Shown: positions 28,043-32,343, numbered from the stretch's first letter. The stretch: DNA of 35,373 bases from Flavobacteriales bacterium (GCA_020435415.1 JAGQZQ010000028.1:1-35373); one strand, 5' to 3'. Notes: generated by a model not told the origin, from the sequence alone. Made by a program: numbers and translations.

Positions 28043-28056
28043 TTAACTTCCGTTAA
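28043..28056 (+). promoter_or_regulatory. FNR/CRP-geometry inverted repeat upstream of the histidine kinase
   Basis: TTAAC-TTCC-GTTAA is a perfect 5-4-5 inverted repeat, the arm and spacer geometry of FNR/CRP-family sites. Its centre (28049.5) lies 37.5 bp upstream of the last base of the -7 box (28087), that is near -42 from the expected start, the class II activator position. It may be an autoregulatory site for the response regulator in the same operon. Confidence 0.4.
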
Positions 28057-28079
28057 CAAATAGGCAGGGGTGTTTTTCA

Positions 28080-28087
28080 TAACTTTG
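28080..28087 (+). promoter_or_regulatory. -7 element at the histidine kinase start
   Basis: TAACTTTG is an exact TAnnTTTG match ending two bases before ATG 28089. A transcript from here would begin at about 28091-28093, at or after that ATG, so translation may really start at the next in-frame ATG, 28104. Confidence 0.55.
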
Positions 28088-28088
28088 A

Positions 28089-29300
28089 ATGAGTACCCGG
28101 AATATGATCAATCCACAAGACCATAATCAAACATTGTCCGGTCTTCCCGTTCAAGGCATGCTTGTTCTTAAAGACAACGGAGATATACAAGGTGTGAGTC
28201 ATACAGCCGCAGAGATGCTTGGTTTTGGCAAGGATGAATGGCGGAAAAGGAGTATGAAGGATAGTCTGATAAAGGATAGCATGGAGGCTTTCGATGCGTA
28301 TTTGCATAACTTTAAAAACAACTCAGACCATATCTCATCTCACACGAGTCATTTTCAGGTAATAGGAAGAGATGAAAAGCTTCTGGGACTGATACTCGAA
28401 CCAATGTTCGTGCCGGATGGGGATTCGGTTATCATTGGTCATGTCCTGGATAACACCACCTGGGAGAACCTGGAAATGGAACTGGTAAGACAGAAAAAAG
28501 GAAAGGAAAAGGTTGCGGAGCAGCTGTACAAAGAACGGGAGTTAAGTGACATGAAAAGCCGCTTCGTATCCACGGCATCCCACGAATTTCGCACGCCACT
28601 TGCAGGGATATTGTCCTCCCTGCAACTCATCAAAAGATACCTGGAAACCGAACCTGAAGAATGGGAGTCGTTCAGGCACCGCGAGAAGGTGGAGGGGCAT
28701 CTGCATAAGATCGAAGAGTCGGTTACCAACCTTACACTTATTATCAACGATTTTCTATCCCTTGGTAAGCTGGAGGAGGATAAGGTCACATGTAAGTATG
28801 AAGTATTTGATATTTCCAACTTTCTTGAAGAGACCTGTGAAGAGTTGAAGCTGCTTTGTAAGGATGGCCAGGAAATTGAATACACACATTTTGGTGACAA
28901 AGGTGAGGTTTGTCTCGACAGCCATATTCTGAAAAATATCGTAAACAACCTTATTTCCAATGCGATTAAATACTCTCCCGAAGGTGCTGTTGTTCGGCTT
29001 GTGTCTAGGGTTAGTGATGATGAGGTGCGGCTTGAAGTTCAGGATGAAGGAATTGGCATTCCAGGCTCGGAACATAAAAATGTCTTCCGGAGATTCTTTC
29101 GGGCTGCAAACGCATTAAACTACCAGGGAACAGGTTTGGGCTTGAGCATTGTAAGACGATATACCGATATTATGAACGGTAAGATCACTTTTCAAAGCCA
29201 GCAAAATCTGGGCACCACTTTTTGTGTAACATTTCCTGCCAAACCAATCTCTGATACTCCGGTTAATTCACCGGTAGAAGCTGACCAAATCCATACATGA
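28089..29300 (+). CDS. Soluble PAS-domain sensor histidine kinase
   Basis: A 403-residue cytoplasmic sensor kinase with no membrane segment. A PAS domain covers about 18-125 (GMLVLKDNGDIQGVSHTAAEMLGF), then a coiled linker, the dimerisation/phosphoacceptor domain with His165 in STASHEFRTPLAG, and an ATPase domain with the N-box NNLISNAIKYSPEG, G1 DEGIGIPG, F-box FRRFFRA and G2 GTGLGLSIV. The signal must be intracellular; no cysteine or haem motif in the PAS domain reveals it. The response regulator gene begins 1 bp after the stop codon, so the two form a pair. ATG 28104 is a plausible alternative start because of the promoter position. Confidence 0.94.
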   Translation: MSTRNMINPQDHNQTLSGLPVQGMLVLKDNGDIQGVSHTAAEMLGFGKDEWRKRSMKDSLIKDSMEAFDAYLHNFKNNSDHISSHTSHFQVIGRDEKLLGLILEPMFVPDGDSVIIGHVLDNTTWENLEMELVRQKKGKEKVAEQLYKERELSDMKSRFVSTASHEFRTPLAGILSSLQLIKRYLETEPEEWESFRHREKVEGHLHKIEESVTNLTLIINDFLSLGKLEEDKVTCKYEVFDISNFLEETCEELKLLCKDGQEIEYTHFGDKGEVCLDSHILKNIVNNLISNAIKYSPEGAVVRLVSRVSDDEVRLEVQDEGIGIPGSEHKNVFRRFFRAANALNYQGTGLGLSIVRRYTDIMNGKITFQSQQNLGTTFCVTFPAKPISDTPVNSPVEADQIHT

Positions 29301-29301
29301 T

Positions 29302-30351
29302 ATGAAAAAGATACTGCTAATTGATGATGACAGAATCATCCGCGAAAACATGGCGGAACTCCTTCAATTGTCCAATTATGAGGTGGAAGTAGCTGCCGAT
29401 GGTAAGGAAGGAGTGGAAAAAGCCAAATCCTGTGGACCGGATCTGATCATTTGTGATGTTATGATGCCGGAGCTGGATGGATACAGTGTTTTGCATCTGT
29501 TAGGAAAAGAGCAGGAAACGGCCTCAATCCCTTTTGTTTTTCTAACTGCAAGGACGGAGAAATCTGATGTCAGGCGTGGTATGAACATGGGTGCAGACGA
29601 CTTTATTACCAAGCCATTCCAGGATATTGAGCTGTTGAATGCGGTTGAAAGCCGTCTGAAAAAGCATGATGCGCTTAAGAAGCAATTTGCTCATAATGGC
29701 TCGGATGTGGACGCATTTCTGAATGAAGCCGGAAGGATTTTGTCGCAAGAGGAAATAGCAGAGAATTATGATAAACAAAAATACAGAAGCCGGGAAACCC
29801 TCTTCATGGAGGGTGAACACGCCCGATTCCTGTATTTTGTGGAAGAAGGCCAGATCAAATGTTATAAGTTGAATGAGGACGGAAAAGAGTTCATTACCGG
29901 AATTTACGGTAAGGGTGATTTTATAGGGTACAAGCCACTTCTGGAGGATCGGACATATCAGGAATTTGCAGAAGTACTGGAAAACTGTACCCTGTTCAAA
30001 ATTCCGAAAAATGATTTCCTTGCGCTGATCCACAAAAACCACGAAGTATCCGATCGCTTCATAAAAATGTTGTCCAAAAATCTATCCGAGAAGGAACAGG
30101 AGTTGATTGAAATGGCTTATAGCTCCGTAAGAAAAAGAACAGCTCATAAGATCATGGCACTGCTTGACAATGAAGGCGGTGAAGAAATCAGGATATCCAG
30201 GACTAACCTGGCCAGAATGGTGGGAACGTCAAAGGAAACATTGGTCAGGGTCTTATCTGAAATGAAGGAGGATAACATTATACATACCGAAGGTCCCAGA
30301 ATTATCCTGGTGGATAAAGAAAAGTTAATGTCACTGGAAAAGTCCTGGTAA
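29302..30351 (+). CDS. Response regulator with CRP/FNR-type output domain
   Basis: A 349-residue fusion. The receiver domain (1-125) has the acidic pair in LLIDDDR, phosphoacceptor Asp52 (IICDVMMPELDG), Thr/Ser in FLTART and Lys in FITKPF. After a linker, residues about 145-260 form a cyclic-nucleotide-binding-like jelly roll (LFMEGEHARFLYFVEEGQIKCY). A Crp-type helix-turn-helix follows: RISRTNLARMVGTSKETLVRVLSEM. The jelly roll lacks the canonical R-x-A phosphate cassette, so cNMP binding is doubtful, and there is no N-terminal cysteine cluster for an iron-sulfur sensor; phosphorylation is the likely input. Candidate FNR-like sites lie before this operon and before the baeRF and acetyltransferase genes. 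Confidence 0.94.
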   Translation: MKKILLIDDDRIIRENMAELLQLSNYEVEVAADGKEGVEKAKSCGPDLIICDVMMPELDGYSVLHLLGKEQETASIPFVFLTARTEKSDVRRGMNMGADDFITKPFQDIELLNAVESRLKKHDALKKQFAHNGSDVDAFLNEAGRILSQEEIAENYDKQKYRSRETLFMEGEHARFLYFVEEGQIKCYKLNEDGKEFITGIYGKGDFIGYKPLLEDRTYQEFAEVLENCTLFKIPKNDFLALIHKNHEVSDRFIKMLSKNLSEKEQELIEMAYSSVRKRTAHKIMALLDNEGGEEIRISRTNLARMVGTSKETLVRVLSEMKEDNIIHTEGPRIILVDKEKLMSLEKSW

Positions 30352-30411
30352 CATCTTCTCCCAATATTGGTCTTCGCACTATTTAGCCGCCCAAGGCCAA
30401 CTTCCAGGCCG

Positions 30412-30425
30412 TTGACGTATATCAA
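30412..30425 (+). promoter_or_regulatory. FNR/CRP-type box upstream of the baeRF gene
   Basis: TTGAC-GTAT-ATCAA matches the FNR consensus TTGAT-N4-ATCAA at nine of ten defined bases. Its centre (30418.5) is 58.5 bp upstream of the last base of a near-consensus -7 element (CAGCTTTG, 30470-30477). It is the best single candidate site for the neighbouring CRP-type response regulator. Confidence 0.55.
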
Positions 30426-30432
30426 TTCCGCT

Positions 30433-30448
30433 GATGAGTGGCGTCATC
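30433..30448 (+). promoter_or_regulatory. Second inverted repeat upstream of the baeRF gene
   Basis: GATGA-GTGGCG-TCATC has perfect 5-bp arms and the same TGA-N6-TCA core as an FNR box. Its centre (30440.5) is 22 bp, two helical turns, from the first box, and 36.5 bp upstream of the end of the degenerate -7 element. Confidence 0.35.
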
Positions 30449-30565
30449 GTGTACTGCACTTCGTTTTGCCAGCTTTGTATATGCTCCGTTAATATGATAT
30501 AAAGGAGTATAATCAGCTGCCTCAAACATGTATGATTTCTGTTATTGTCGAAAGTATGTTATGAA

Positions 30566-31735
30566 ATGGAAGAACTCATGATGGATCCTTCCATATATTC
30601 TTCGTTATCAAGAAAGCGGTTCGGGCAACTGGCGGCAACACACGATATTCACTGCATTTCCATATATCTGCCCGCCGTAGAAGAAGGGCGAATGGCGAAT
30701 GAGGACAAGCGACCGCTCCTGTTAAAGAATGATCTGAAAGAGTTGCATGCTGAGTTGGAACGATACAAGGGCGGAAAGAATTACGTGAAGAACTACCTGA
30801 GGCCCGTTGAACTTCTGCTGAACAACACAGGTTTCTGGAGAACACATCATCAGGCCCTCGCCATGTTCCTGTCTGGTAATGGTTTTGTTTGTTTTTCCCT
30901 GCCCATATCCGCAAGTGCCAGGGTGTATTTTGGAGATCATTTCTACCTGCAACCCCTTCTCCCGTTGTTTGCTGAAGACATAAAGTTTTTTGTAATGACC
31001 CTGACCCGGCATGAAATGATTTTGTACGAAGGAAGCTCATATGGTCTGACGGAACGCCTGGTAAAACGAAATGTGCCGGTATTGATGGGAGAGAATGGAA
31101 GGTCCGCTCAGAAAATGCTCCAATTCCGGAGTGGTCAGGAACAGGGAGGGAGGGCGATGTTTCACGGTCAGCATGAAGACAATGATAAGGAGCTGGTGAA
31201 ATTCTTCAAGAATGTGGATGCAGATGTGATGAGGTTAATCGGTCATGAAACTTATCCGCTTGTTCTGGCATGCCAGGGATACCATTTTACCCATTTCAGG
31301 AGGTTGACAAGGTATGCGCACGTGCATCCCGAGTTTATTGAAGGTAATCCGGCAACTGTGGGTATAAACAAGCTTTTTGTTCAGGCATCCAGGCTAAGGA
31401 GAGCTTTGATTAACCGGATGCGAAATGATAAAATTAAGTTGTTTAAAGAGCTGCAATTTGCAGCGCGTACCTCTATTCGCCCCGATAAAATAATTCCTGC
31501 TGCGATGGAAGGGAGAGTAGATACACTTTTTGTAAGGGAATCCCATGACCTTTTCGGCTTGTTTGATCAGCAGAACAGAACGGTTATCCTGGATGAATAT
31601 AAAAAGCCCGGTAACGCATCGTTGGTTAATATGGCTGCAGTTAACAGTTTTGAGAACGGTGGCCAGGTTTATGTCATGGAGGATGATGAAATGCCGGTTC
31701 GGGAAACCGTCATGAATGCACTGTTCCGTTATTAG
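30566..31735 (+). CDS. baeRF3-like protein (bacterial relative of archaeo-eukaryotic release factor 1)
   Basis: A 389-residue cytosolic protein resembling the bacterial archaeo-eukaryotic release factor (baeRF) families, group 3. Matching segments are HCISIYLPAVEEGR near the start, LLLNNTGFWRTHHQALAMFLS, FYLQPLLPLFAEDIKFFVMTLTRHEMILYEG, the AMFHGQ loop, then PLVLACQGYHFTHFRRLTRY and HPEFIEGNP, and the C-terminal L7Ae-like part ending GGQVYVMEDDEMP. The protein lacks a GGQ in the central catalytic position; the GGQ near residue 365 belongs to the C-terminal strand. These families are thought to act on stalled or hibernating ribosomes or tRNA, though evidence is mostly genomic. ATG 30566 is preferred over TTG 30545. 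Upstream are two FNR-like inverted repeats. Confidence 0.82.
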   Translation: MEELMMDPSIYSSLSRKRFGQLAATHDIHCISIYLPAVEEGRMANEDKRPLLLKNDLKELHAELERYKGGKNYVKNYLRPVELLLNNTGFWRTHHQALAMFLSGNGFVCFSLPISASARVYFGDHFYLQPLLPLFAEDIKFFVMTLTRHEMILYEGSSYGLTERLVKRNVPVLMGENGRSAQKMLQFRSGQEQGGRAMFHGQHEDNDKELVKFFKNVDADVMRLIGHETYPLVLACQGYHFTHFRRLTRYAHVHPEFIEGNPATVGINKLFVQASRLRRALINRMRNDKIKLFKELQFAARTSIRPDKIIPAAMEGRVDTLFVRESHDLFGLFDQQNRTVILDEYKKPGNASLVNMAAVNSFENGGQVYVMEDDEMPVRETVMNALFRY

Positions 31736-31926
31736 GCCGTTGGTTTCTTTTCAGGGGAATCCGGTTTATCTCTTCGGGGAACTTGTTCCGGAGGGATGGT
31801 TGCCGGACCCGGTTCTTCAGGTGGAATCCCGGTAGGGTGTTTTTCGGGAGGGTTTGCTCCCGGTTTCGTTTGTGGTCGGGTAGGCGGTTCTTTGGGGTGA
31901 TTGGGTTTTTTGGGCTTGTCATTCAT
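31732..31926 (-). CDS. Small proline-rich protein
   Basis: A possible 64-residue protein (ATG 31926) with 20 prolines and many Lys, Glu and Arg: it begins MNDKPKKPNHPKEPPTRPQT and ends SPEKKPTA. It is predicted disordered, with no signal or membrane segment. Small proline-rich proteins of this kind are common in Bacteroidota. Its stop codon overlaps the end of the baeRF gene by 4 bp on the opposite strand. A start at 31953 is also possible. A minus-strand TACCTTAT (31934-31941) resembles a -7 box, 36.5 bp from the centre of the FNR-like box at 31964-31977. Low-complexity composition means a spurious frame cannot be excluded. Confidence 0.5.
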   Translation of the reverse strand: MNDKPKKPNHPKEPPTRPQTKPGANPPEKHPTGIPPEEPGPATIPPEQVPRRDKPDSPEKKPTA

Positions 31927-31963
31927 ATCTACAATAAGGTACATTCTGTCCATGACTTTTCAA

Positions 31964-31977
31964 TTGATAAAGGTCAA
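31964..31977. promoter_or_regulatory. FNR/CRP-type box between the proline-rich gene and the acetyltransferase
   Basis: TTGAT-AAAG-GTCAA matches TTGAT-N4-ATCAA at nine of ten defined bases. The centre (31970.5) is 58.5 bp upstream of the end of the plus-strand -7 box (32029), the same distance as the baeRF box. It also lies 36.5 bp from a degenerate minus-strand -7 box, so it could serve both divergent genes. Confidence 0.55.
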
Positions 31978-32021
31978 TTAACGTGTTGATTAATGTATTC
32001 ACGATTCTGTCGTTCCTTCTA

Positions 32022-32029
32022 TACATTTG
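32022..32029 (+). promoter_or_regulatory. -7 element for the small acetyltransferase
   Basis: TACATTTG is an exact TAnnTTTG match 29 bp before ATG 32059. It rules against the longer frame beginning at 31993, most of whose extra N-terminus precedes or overlaps this element. Confidence 0.55.
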
Positions 32030-32058: not shown

Positions 32059-32343
32059 ATGAATGTTAAAGTAAAACACGACAGGCAGAGCCACAAGTTT
32101 CATGCTGTCATTGATGATGAGGTGGCTTACCTTCATTACCGTACGAAAGGATCGGGGAAGCTGGAGTATTATGAAACCTATGTTCCCATGGACCACCGGC
32201 ATCAGCGGATTGCCTCCCAGCTGGCTGATACGGCGCTGAGCTATGCAAAGAACAACCAGTATCAGGTGATCCCTACATGCTCTTTTGTGAGATCATATAT
32301 TAAGAATCATGAGGAGTTTAAGGATATCACGACACAGCGATAA
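32059..32343 (+). CDS. YjdJ-type small GNAT acetyltransferase
   Basis: A 94-residue minimal GNAT domain of the COG2388/YjdJ type. KVKHDRQSHKFHAVIDDEVAYLHY starts the fold, YYETYVPMDHRHQRIASQLADTAL carries the acetyl-CoA loop (H-R-H-Q-R-I-A in place of R-G-x-G-I-A), and VIPTCSFVRSYIKNHEEF is the conserved C-terminus with the Cys found in this subfamily. The two usual loop glycines are replaced by His and Gln, which is a clear deviation. ATG 32059 gives the standard N-terminus and follows a -7 box. Substrates of this subgroup are unknown. It precedes another small stress-type gene by 42 bp. Confidence 0.87.
   Translation: MNVKVKHDRQSHKFHAVIDDEVAYLHYRTKGSGKLEYYETYVPMDHRHQRIASQLADTALSYAKNNQYQVIPTCSFVRSYIKNHEEFKDITTQR

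Follow-up and report, generated by a model that had tools for sequence, protein, structure and literature searches.

Predicted FNR/FixK-type boxes around a REC-CRP response regulator of a Flavobacteriales bacterium and a candidate stress regulon

In a 35,373-nucleotide stretch of DNA from a Flavobacteriales bacterium (GCA_020435415.1 JAGQZQ010000028.1:1-35373, hereafter the window), positions 28,043–32,029 contain the genes for a PAS histidine kinase, for a response regulator with a CRP-type output (REC-CRP) and for a bacterial archaeo-eukaryotic release factor-like (baeRF) protein, together with the promoter of a small GNAT-family acetyltransferase gene (Table 1). Two sequences, TTGACGTATATCAA before baeRF and TTGATAAAGGTCAA before the GNAT gene, both fit the FNR/FixK consensus TTGAY-N4-RTCAA and look like FNR/FixK-type regulator-binding sites, as far as can be predicted. 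We consider it about two-thirds probable that an activator of the CRP/FNR family uses TTGAY-N4-RTCAA boxes as its operators and drives a stress regulon from them; the likeliest candidate is the REC-CRP, whose gene lies between those of the kinase and of baeRF. The motif, its placement, geometry, conservation and target genes are read from the sequence; from them we infer which protein binds the boxes, that it activates transcription instead of repressing it, and to what signal it responds.

The original prediction had placed four inverted repeats at 37.5, 58.5, 36.5 and 58.5 base pairs (bp) from the end of a −7 element, and the coordinates, sequences and centre-to-end distances of all four are confirmed. 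It had called the −7 element of the baeRF promoter degenerate; there is one mismatch to TAnnTTTG, and comparably degenerate elements occur at identical spacing in other promoters with a box. Beyond the window, the spacings of 58.5 and 36.5 bp recur. Among 25 promoter boxes there, picked irrespective of spacing (from the window's genome, Ochrovirga pacifica, Wenyingzhuangia and REC-CRP loci), −7-like elements (at most one mismatch to TAnnTTTG) are found at 58.5 bp (n = 5), 59.5 bp (n = 5) and 36.5 bp (n = 3), with about 0.55 per bin at other distances. The excess at 58.5 and 59.5 bp gives a Poisson p of ∼3e-7, with the 59.5 bin pooled post hoc, after inspection of the data. The pair 36.5/58.5 ranks first among all pairs 22 bp apart (8 versus a mean of 1.4). 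Further 36.5-bp cases are the SpoIIAA-like promoter (with TAGCTTTA) and the box 3′ of the baeRF-like gene of locus L300 (with GACCTTTG). When 18 genomes with a REC-CRP were scanned more crudely, with coding matches included, the two highest counts in 30 bins were again those at 36.5 and 58.5 bp, among the matches listed. Dps has a box both in the window's genome (at 36.5 bp) and in Wenyingzhuangia (at 58.5 bp, with a perfect −7 element).

In E. coli, the class II position of CRP and FNR is −41.5, and −63.5 is close to class I. The TAnnTTTG element of Flavobacterium psychrophilum occupies −12 to −5 (PMC9723704), so that a distance of 36.5 bp corresponds to −41.5 (class II) and one of 58.5 bp to −63.5 (close to class I). 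Boxes at 36.5 bp are also observed, in unrelated genomes, before the −7 elements of SRPBCC-like and DinB-like genes (L256, L264; L257, L261); these perhaps belong to a different CRP/FNR regulon that uses the class II arrangement.

Conservation was compared at the level of the class (Bacteroidia). REC-CRPs of the window type are found in Ochrovirga (L044), in Wenyingzhuangia (L045) and at the loci L296 and L300. The proteins of the window, L044, L045 and L296 form one clade (support 100/99); that of L300, which stands outside the tree, is assigned by gene order and recognition helix. At all four orthologous loci, the next gene downstream is baeRF-like, by BLASTP against the baeRF protein of the window for L300 (2e-13), L296 (8e-19) and L045 (2e-21), and by N-terminal likeness only for L044. 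Pfam gave no name to these four proteins, which are mostly shorter than that of the window. A TTGAYN4RTCAA box precedes the baeRF-like gene at each of the four loci as in the window, so that the comparison of orthologous intergenic regions proposed with the original prediction finds the box kept at every orthologous locus found. Of the 11 columns that do not vary in the alignment of the five promoters, 8 belong to the TTGA/TCAA halves. The same box stands before the kinase in three of the four orthologues (L044, L045 and L296). At about 44 other REC-CRP loci, with different following genes, there is no exact box within 1.5 kb, versus 4/4 with a baeRF-like neighbor (Fisher 5e-6, for counts that are not independent events). 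Within the G173 family, L296 and L300 were the only loci of the window type that a search for more could recognize. Related membrane-anchored proteins (RIALPY.. / VRLALPY..) are encoded behind a box in Wenyingzhuangia (L209) and 3′ of the baeRF-like gene in L296 (L296:1-592, − strand); they are a possible further member of the regulon.

In the 3.48-Mb genome, a pattern scan finds TTGAYNNNNRTCAA (TTGAYN4RTCAA) 23 times, near the ∼17 estimated from base composition; it is the placement that departs from chance. Two copies fall in the 4-kb stretch under study, versus ∼0.03 expected from the genome-wide density. About 9 of the 23 are intergenic, mostly 68–100 bp 5′ of a start codon according to open reading frame calling around the sites, on whose choice of start the placement of a few depends. 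For a composition-matched control palindrome, ATTGYNNNNRCAAT (18 genomic copies, 15 examined), one of 15 is intergenic and none lies at 45–130 bp before a start; the difference in intergenic share (Fisher p = 0.03) is modest by itself. The reversed pattern (3 copies versus 23 boxes) was dropped as an unfair control of counts. As the original prediction expected of a genome scan, the boxes precede stress genes (Hsp20, Dps, UspA and SpoIIAA-like). Behind the intergenic boxes of the window are the baeRF and GNAT genes; behind the others are genes for Hsp20 (PF00011), Usp (PF00582), SpoIIAA-like (PF11964), DUF6157 and DUF4856 proteins and for a secreted PKD protein, as well as an operon in which Dps (PF00210) accompanies a LapA-domain gene (PF06305). 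Hsp20 promoters proved unsuitable as a general marker, with an exact box in only 3 of ∼25 Hsp20 genes inspected in REC-CRP genomes. In each of these three, a −7-like element stands at one of the two spacings, 36.5 or 58.5 bp, and Hsp20 is a predicted, occasional target.

The REC-CRP itself belongs to the CRP/FNR family (PF00027, 1e-21; PF13545, 2.2e-13; both above cut-off). Its receiver is complete (PF00072, 9.9e-30), with D8/D9, D52, T82 and K104, and the HisKA/HATPase gene is directly upstream. Its recognition helix holds K180 and the equivalents of Glu181 and Arg185 (by-eye alignment to CRP 178–185). The Glu181/Arg185 type correlates with TTGA half-sites, and TTAAC-N4-GTTAA goes with a Gln181 protein (PMC1274295). 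The N-terminal [4Fe-4S] cysteine cluster of FNR is absent from the REC-CRP, the only cysteines being 44, 51, 187 and 229, with the first two in the receiver; where CRP has the GELGL of the cAMP pocket, it reads GYKPL (judged by eye). With the cluster absent and a cAMP pocket not apparent by inspection, control by phosphorylation is the natural expectation. A limited search of the open-access literature did not find a characterized REC-CRP of the window type. Elsewhere in the window's genome there is a second kinase/REC-CRP pair (G000:C54:1-4058, L124), with a Usp gene behind it and several PAS-like stretches in the kinase.

Not all the repeats of the original prediction stand. They had been described as 5-4-5 inverted repeats, and TTAACTTCCGTTAA, 5′ of the kinase operon, is perfect, whereas both TTGAY boxes are mismatched at the innermost arm pair (TTGAC/ATCAA and TTGAT/GTCAA). 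Perfect 5-4-5 palindromes occur at chance frequency in the window (33 versus ∼35 expected, at 1 in 1024 positions); palindromy alone thus carries little weight, and the case rests on sequence, placement and conservation. TTAACTTCCGTTAA is unsupported as an autoregulatory box, because its arms, TTAAC-N4-GTTAA, are those of the published motif of NssR. In the HcpR/NssR family (PMC1274295), NssR is A180/Q181, whereas the window regulator is K180/E181, which goes with TTGA-type sites; the relatives carry TTGAT/TTGAC at the place of TTAACTTCCGTTAA. It is possibly a decayed or variant site, and probably not a standard box of the window's regulator. The GATGA-N6-TCATC repeat GATGAGTGGCGTCATC is not FNR-like, and the four orthologous promoters do not conserve it; it, too, probably does not serve that regulator. 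For these two repeats chance is the likely reading; for TTGACGTATATCAA and TTGATAAAGGTCAA it is largely refuted by the conservation and geometry tests. The activator had further been said to control its own operon, baeRF and the small-protein genes. This holds, as a prediction, for baeRF, for the GNAT gene and for the kinase operon in three of four orthologues, but is unsupported for the window's own-operon box.

Table 1. Genes, boxes and −7 elements in and next to the stretch under study (window coordinates)
Feature	Coordinates	Strand	Description
TTAACTTCCGTTAA, perfect 5-4-5 palindrome 5′ of kinase operon	28043..28056	+	TTAAC-N4-GTTAA; centre 37.5 bp from end of TAACTTTG
−7 element TAACTTTG, kinase/REC-CRP operon	28080..28087	+	exact TAnnTTTG
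Soluble PAS histidine kinase	28104..29300	+	PAS, HisKA, HATPase_c (Pfam)
REC-CRP response regulator	29302..30351	+	Response_reg, cNMP_binding, HTH_Crp_2 (Pfam); recognition helix GTSKETLVR
Predicted FNR/FixK-type box TTGACGTATATCAA, baeRF promoter	30412..30425	+	centre 58.5 bp from end of CAGCTTTG; class I-like, ∼−63.5
Inverted repeat GATGAGTGGCGTCATC	30433..30448	+	GATGA-N6-TCATC; centre 36.5 bp from end of CAGCTTTG
Degenerate −7 element CAGCTTTG, baeRF promoter	30470..30477	+	1 mismatch to TAnnTTTG
baeRF protein	30566..31735	+	Pfam baeRF_family3, 2.8e-23
Predicted FNR/FixK-type box TTGATAAAGGTCAA, GNAT promoter	31964..31977	+	centre 58.5 bp from end of TACATTTG; ∼−63.5
−7 element TACATTTG, GNAT promoter	32022..32029	+	exact TAnnTTTG
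Small GNAT-family acetyltransferase (Acetyltransf_CG)	32059..32343	+	Pfam PF14542, 7.7e-21

For the kinase, the start at the in-frame ATG 28104 is more likely, since ATG 28089 would precede the transcription start site. On the − strand, a 73-residue proline-rich open reading frame (31732–31953) starts 11 bp from the GNAT box; it has no Pfam match and may or may not be a gene.

A mechanism can be proposed on this basis. The soluble PAS kinase would sense a cytoplasmic stress or redox signal and, given the intact receiver residues, would phosphorylate Asp52 of the REC-CRP. The active CRP-type dimer would bind TTGAY-N4-RTCAA and recruit the Bacteroidota sigma-A RNA polymerase. Recruitment would be class I-like, from −63.5, at baeRF and the GNAT gene in the window and at Dps and Hsp20 in other genomes, and class II, from −41.5, at Hsp20, the Dps operon and the SpoIIAA-like gene in the window's genome. 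Autoregulation would operate through the kinase-operon box in the orthologues; the version in the window, TTAAC-N4-GTTAA, may be weak or lost.

The box consensus is already known from FnrN/FixK regulons. In the alphaproteobacterium Sphingopyxis granuli TFA (PMC7713065), a CRP/FNR-family activator also acts at TTGAc/t-N4-g/aTCAA boxes near −41.5 (class II), with uspA as a target. As in regulons of the FixK/FnrN type, TTGAY-N4-RTCAA boxes occur here at class I and class II positions before a shared set of stress and redox genes. In the alphaproteobacteria, a stand-alone FNR or FixK protein does the activating, whereas the candidate of the window is itself a response regulator and carries a receiver; the window differs also in its Bacteroidota TAnnTTTG promoter and in targets that include baeRF, Dps and Hsp20. 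From the CRP/FNR systems of E. coli, it is set apart by the sigma-A −7 element of Bacteroidota and by a regulator in which inspection shows neither a cAMP-pocket nor an Fe-S cysteine pattern.

The system resembles the FixL–FixJ–FixK cascade in leading from a PAS histidine kinase through a response regulator to FNR-like boxes served by an activator of the CRP/FNR type. Several relatives of the operon share, in addition, a FixL-like heme-PAS motif and nearby genes for a CcoI-like ATPase or HemN-like proteins (inspection). In contrast to the cascade, the receiver and the CRP-type DNA-binding parts are fused in the REC-CRP, and the heme-PAS stretch HDxY...IIGxGREV, present in other relatives, is absent by inspection from the kinases of the window, L044 and L045. 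The FixL-like kinases and the Usp, Hsp20, CcoI-like and HemN-like neighbors of the relatives suggest a FixL–FixJ–FixK-like design with FixJ and FixK fused. A wider reading, which we hold tentatively and at a little less than even confidence, is that the REC-CRP class merges in one protein the roles that FixJ and FixK have in rhizobia and that the window subfamily, without heme sensing, drives an autoregulated, baeRF-centred stress regulon with Dps, Hsp20 and Usp through FNR-type boxes.

FixL-like PAS stretches (of the MPEPYHSEHDEYI..IIGVGREVIG type) are seen in kinases 5′ of other REC-CRPs (L048, L049, L051, L052, L054, L059, L060), and HemN-like, CcoI-like or Usp/Hsp20 genes lie near such loci (inspection). 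These may be an oxygen-sensing counterpart of FixLJ–FixK in Saprospiraceae and Cytophagales. REC-CRP proteins in general are present in 143 of 296 sampled Bacteroidia genomes, and directly 3′ of many REC-CRP genes of the other type there is a conserved small protein (of the MKISIDDNRKILEIQEEFSALFPYLKIEFF... type; L301, L303, L305, L307, L320, L323).

Several observations weigh against a stress regulon under the REC-CRP of the window. The kinase promoters of the window and of L300 are both without a TTGAY box, and most Hsp20 genes in REC-CRP genomes have none. The −7 elements of the baeRF promoters are degenerate, and in L045 neither spacing offers a −7-like element, even with one mismatch allowed. 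The comparison draws on a small number of related genomes, in which the locus types divide along the same line as the presence or absence of a baeRF-like gene. Other proteins could bind the same boxes: all five box-bearing genomes encode FNR-like paralogues with similar recognition residues, the second REC-CRP of the window's genome is 48% identical to the first, and boxes of the same geometry occur near Hsp20/Usp genes where only the other REC-CRP type exists. Recognition-helix residues do not separate the paralogues, all three candidates being of the Glu181/Arg185 type.

The boxes could be real but bound mainly by the stand-alone FNR-like paralogue (contig C34, 254 residues), responding to redox state or oxygen, with the REC-CRP merely a neighbor of the targets. 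We regard this as unlikely. In its favor, the consensus is that of the published FnrN/FixK box, for which uspA is a regulon member and sites mostly centre near −41.5 (PMC7713065); FNR-like proteins are present in five of five box-bearing genomes; and boxed Hsp20/Usp genes occur in genomes without a window-type REC-CRP. However, REC-CRP loci lack boxes in genomes with a close FNR homolog (e.g., G275, G062 and G107), and the boxes of the kinase operon and of the baeRF-like gene track the window-type locus. That the second REC-CRP (contig C54, beside the UspA gene) or several CRP/FNR proteins share the boxes in an overlapping network appears quite improbable. The Glu181/Arg185-type residues of both REC-CRPs and of the FNR-like paralogue would allow it, as would boxed Usp/Hsp20 genes where only the other REC-CRP type is present, but the ∼44 other-type loci lack an exact box within 1.5 kb, and the only intergenic match (at most two mismatches) in the C54 operon is poor and away from the kinase. 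Chance matches with coincidentally equal distances are very improbable: palindromes and TTGAY boxes do number about as many as chance gives, and the −7 elements of the window were chosen by eye, but the boxes are placed before stress genes, the spacings recur at independent sites, and the footprint is conserved in four distant loci.

If control by the REC-CRP of the window is correct, it would provide a regulator, a DNA code and a list of targets for a stress response in a phylum with few defined CRP/FNR regulons. One gene of the bacterial aeRF-like families, on which little work exists, would come under a specific signal, and the role of its protein would become testable. The atypical promoter of Bacteroidota would be seen to work with activation from −41.5 (class II) as well as from −63.5 (class I-like), and the fused FixJ–FixK design would be open to study.

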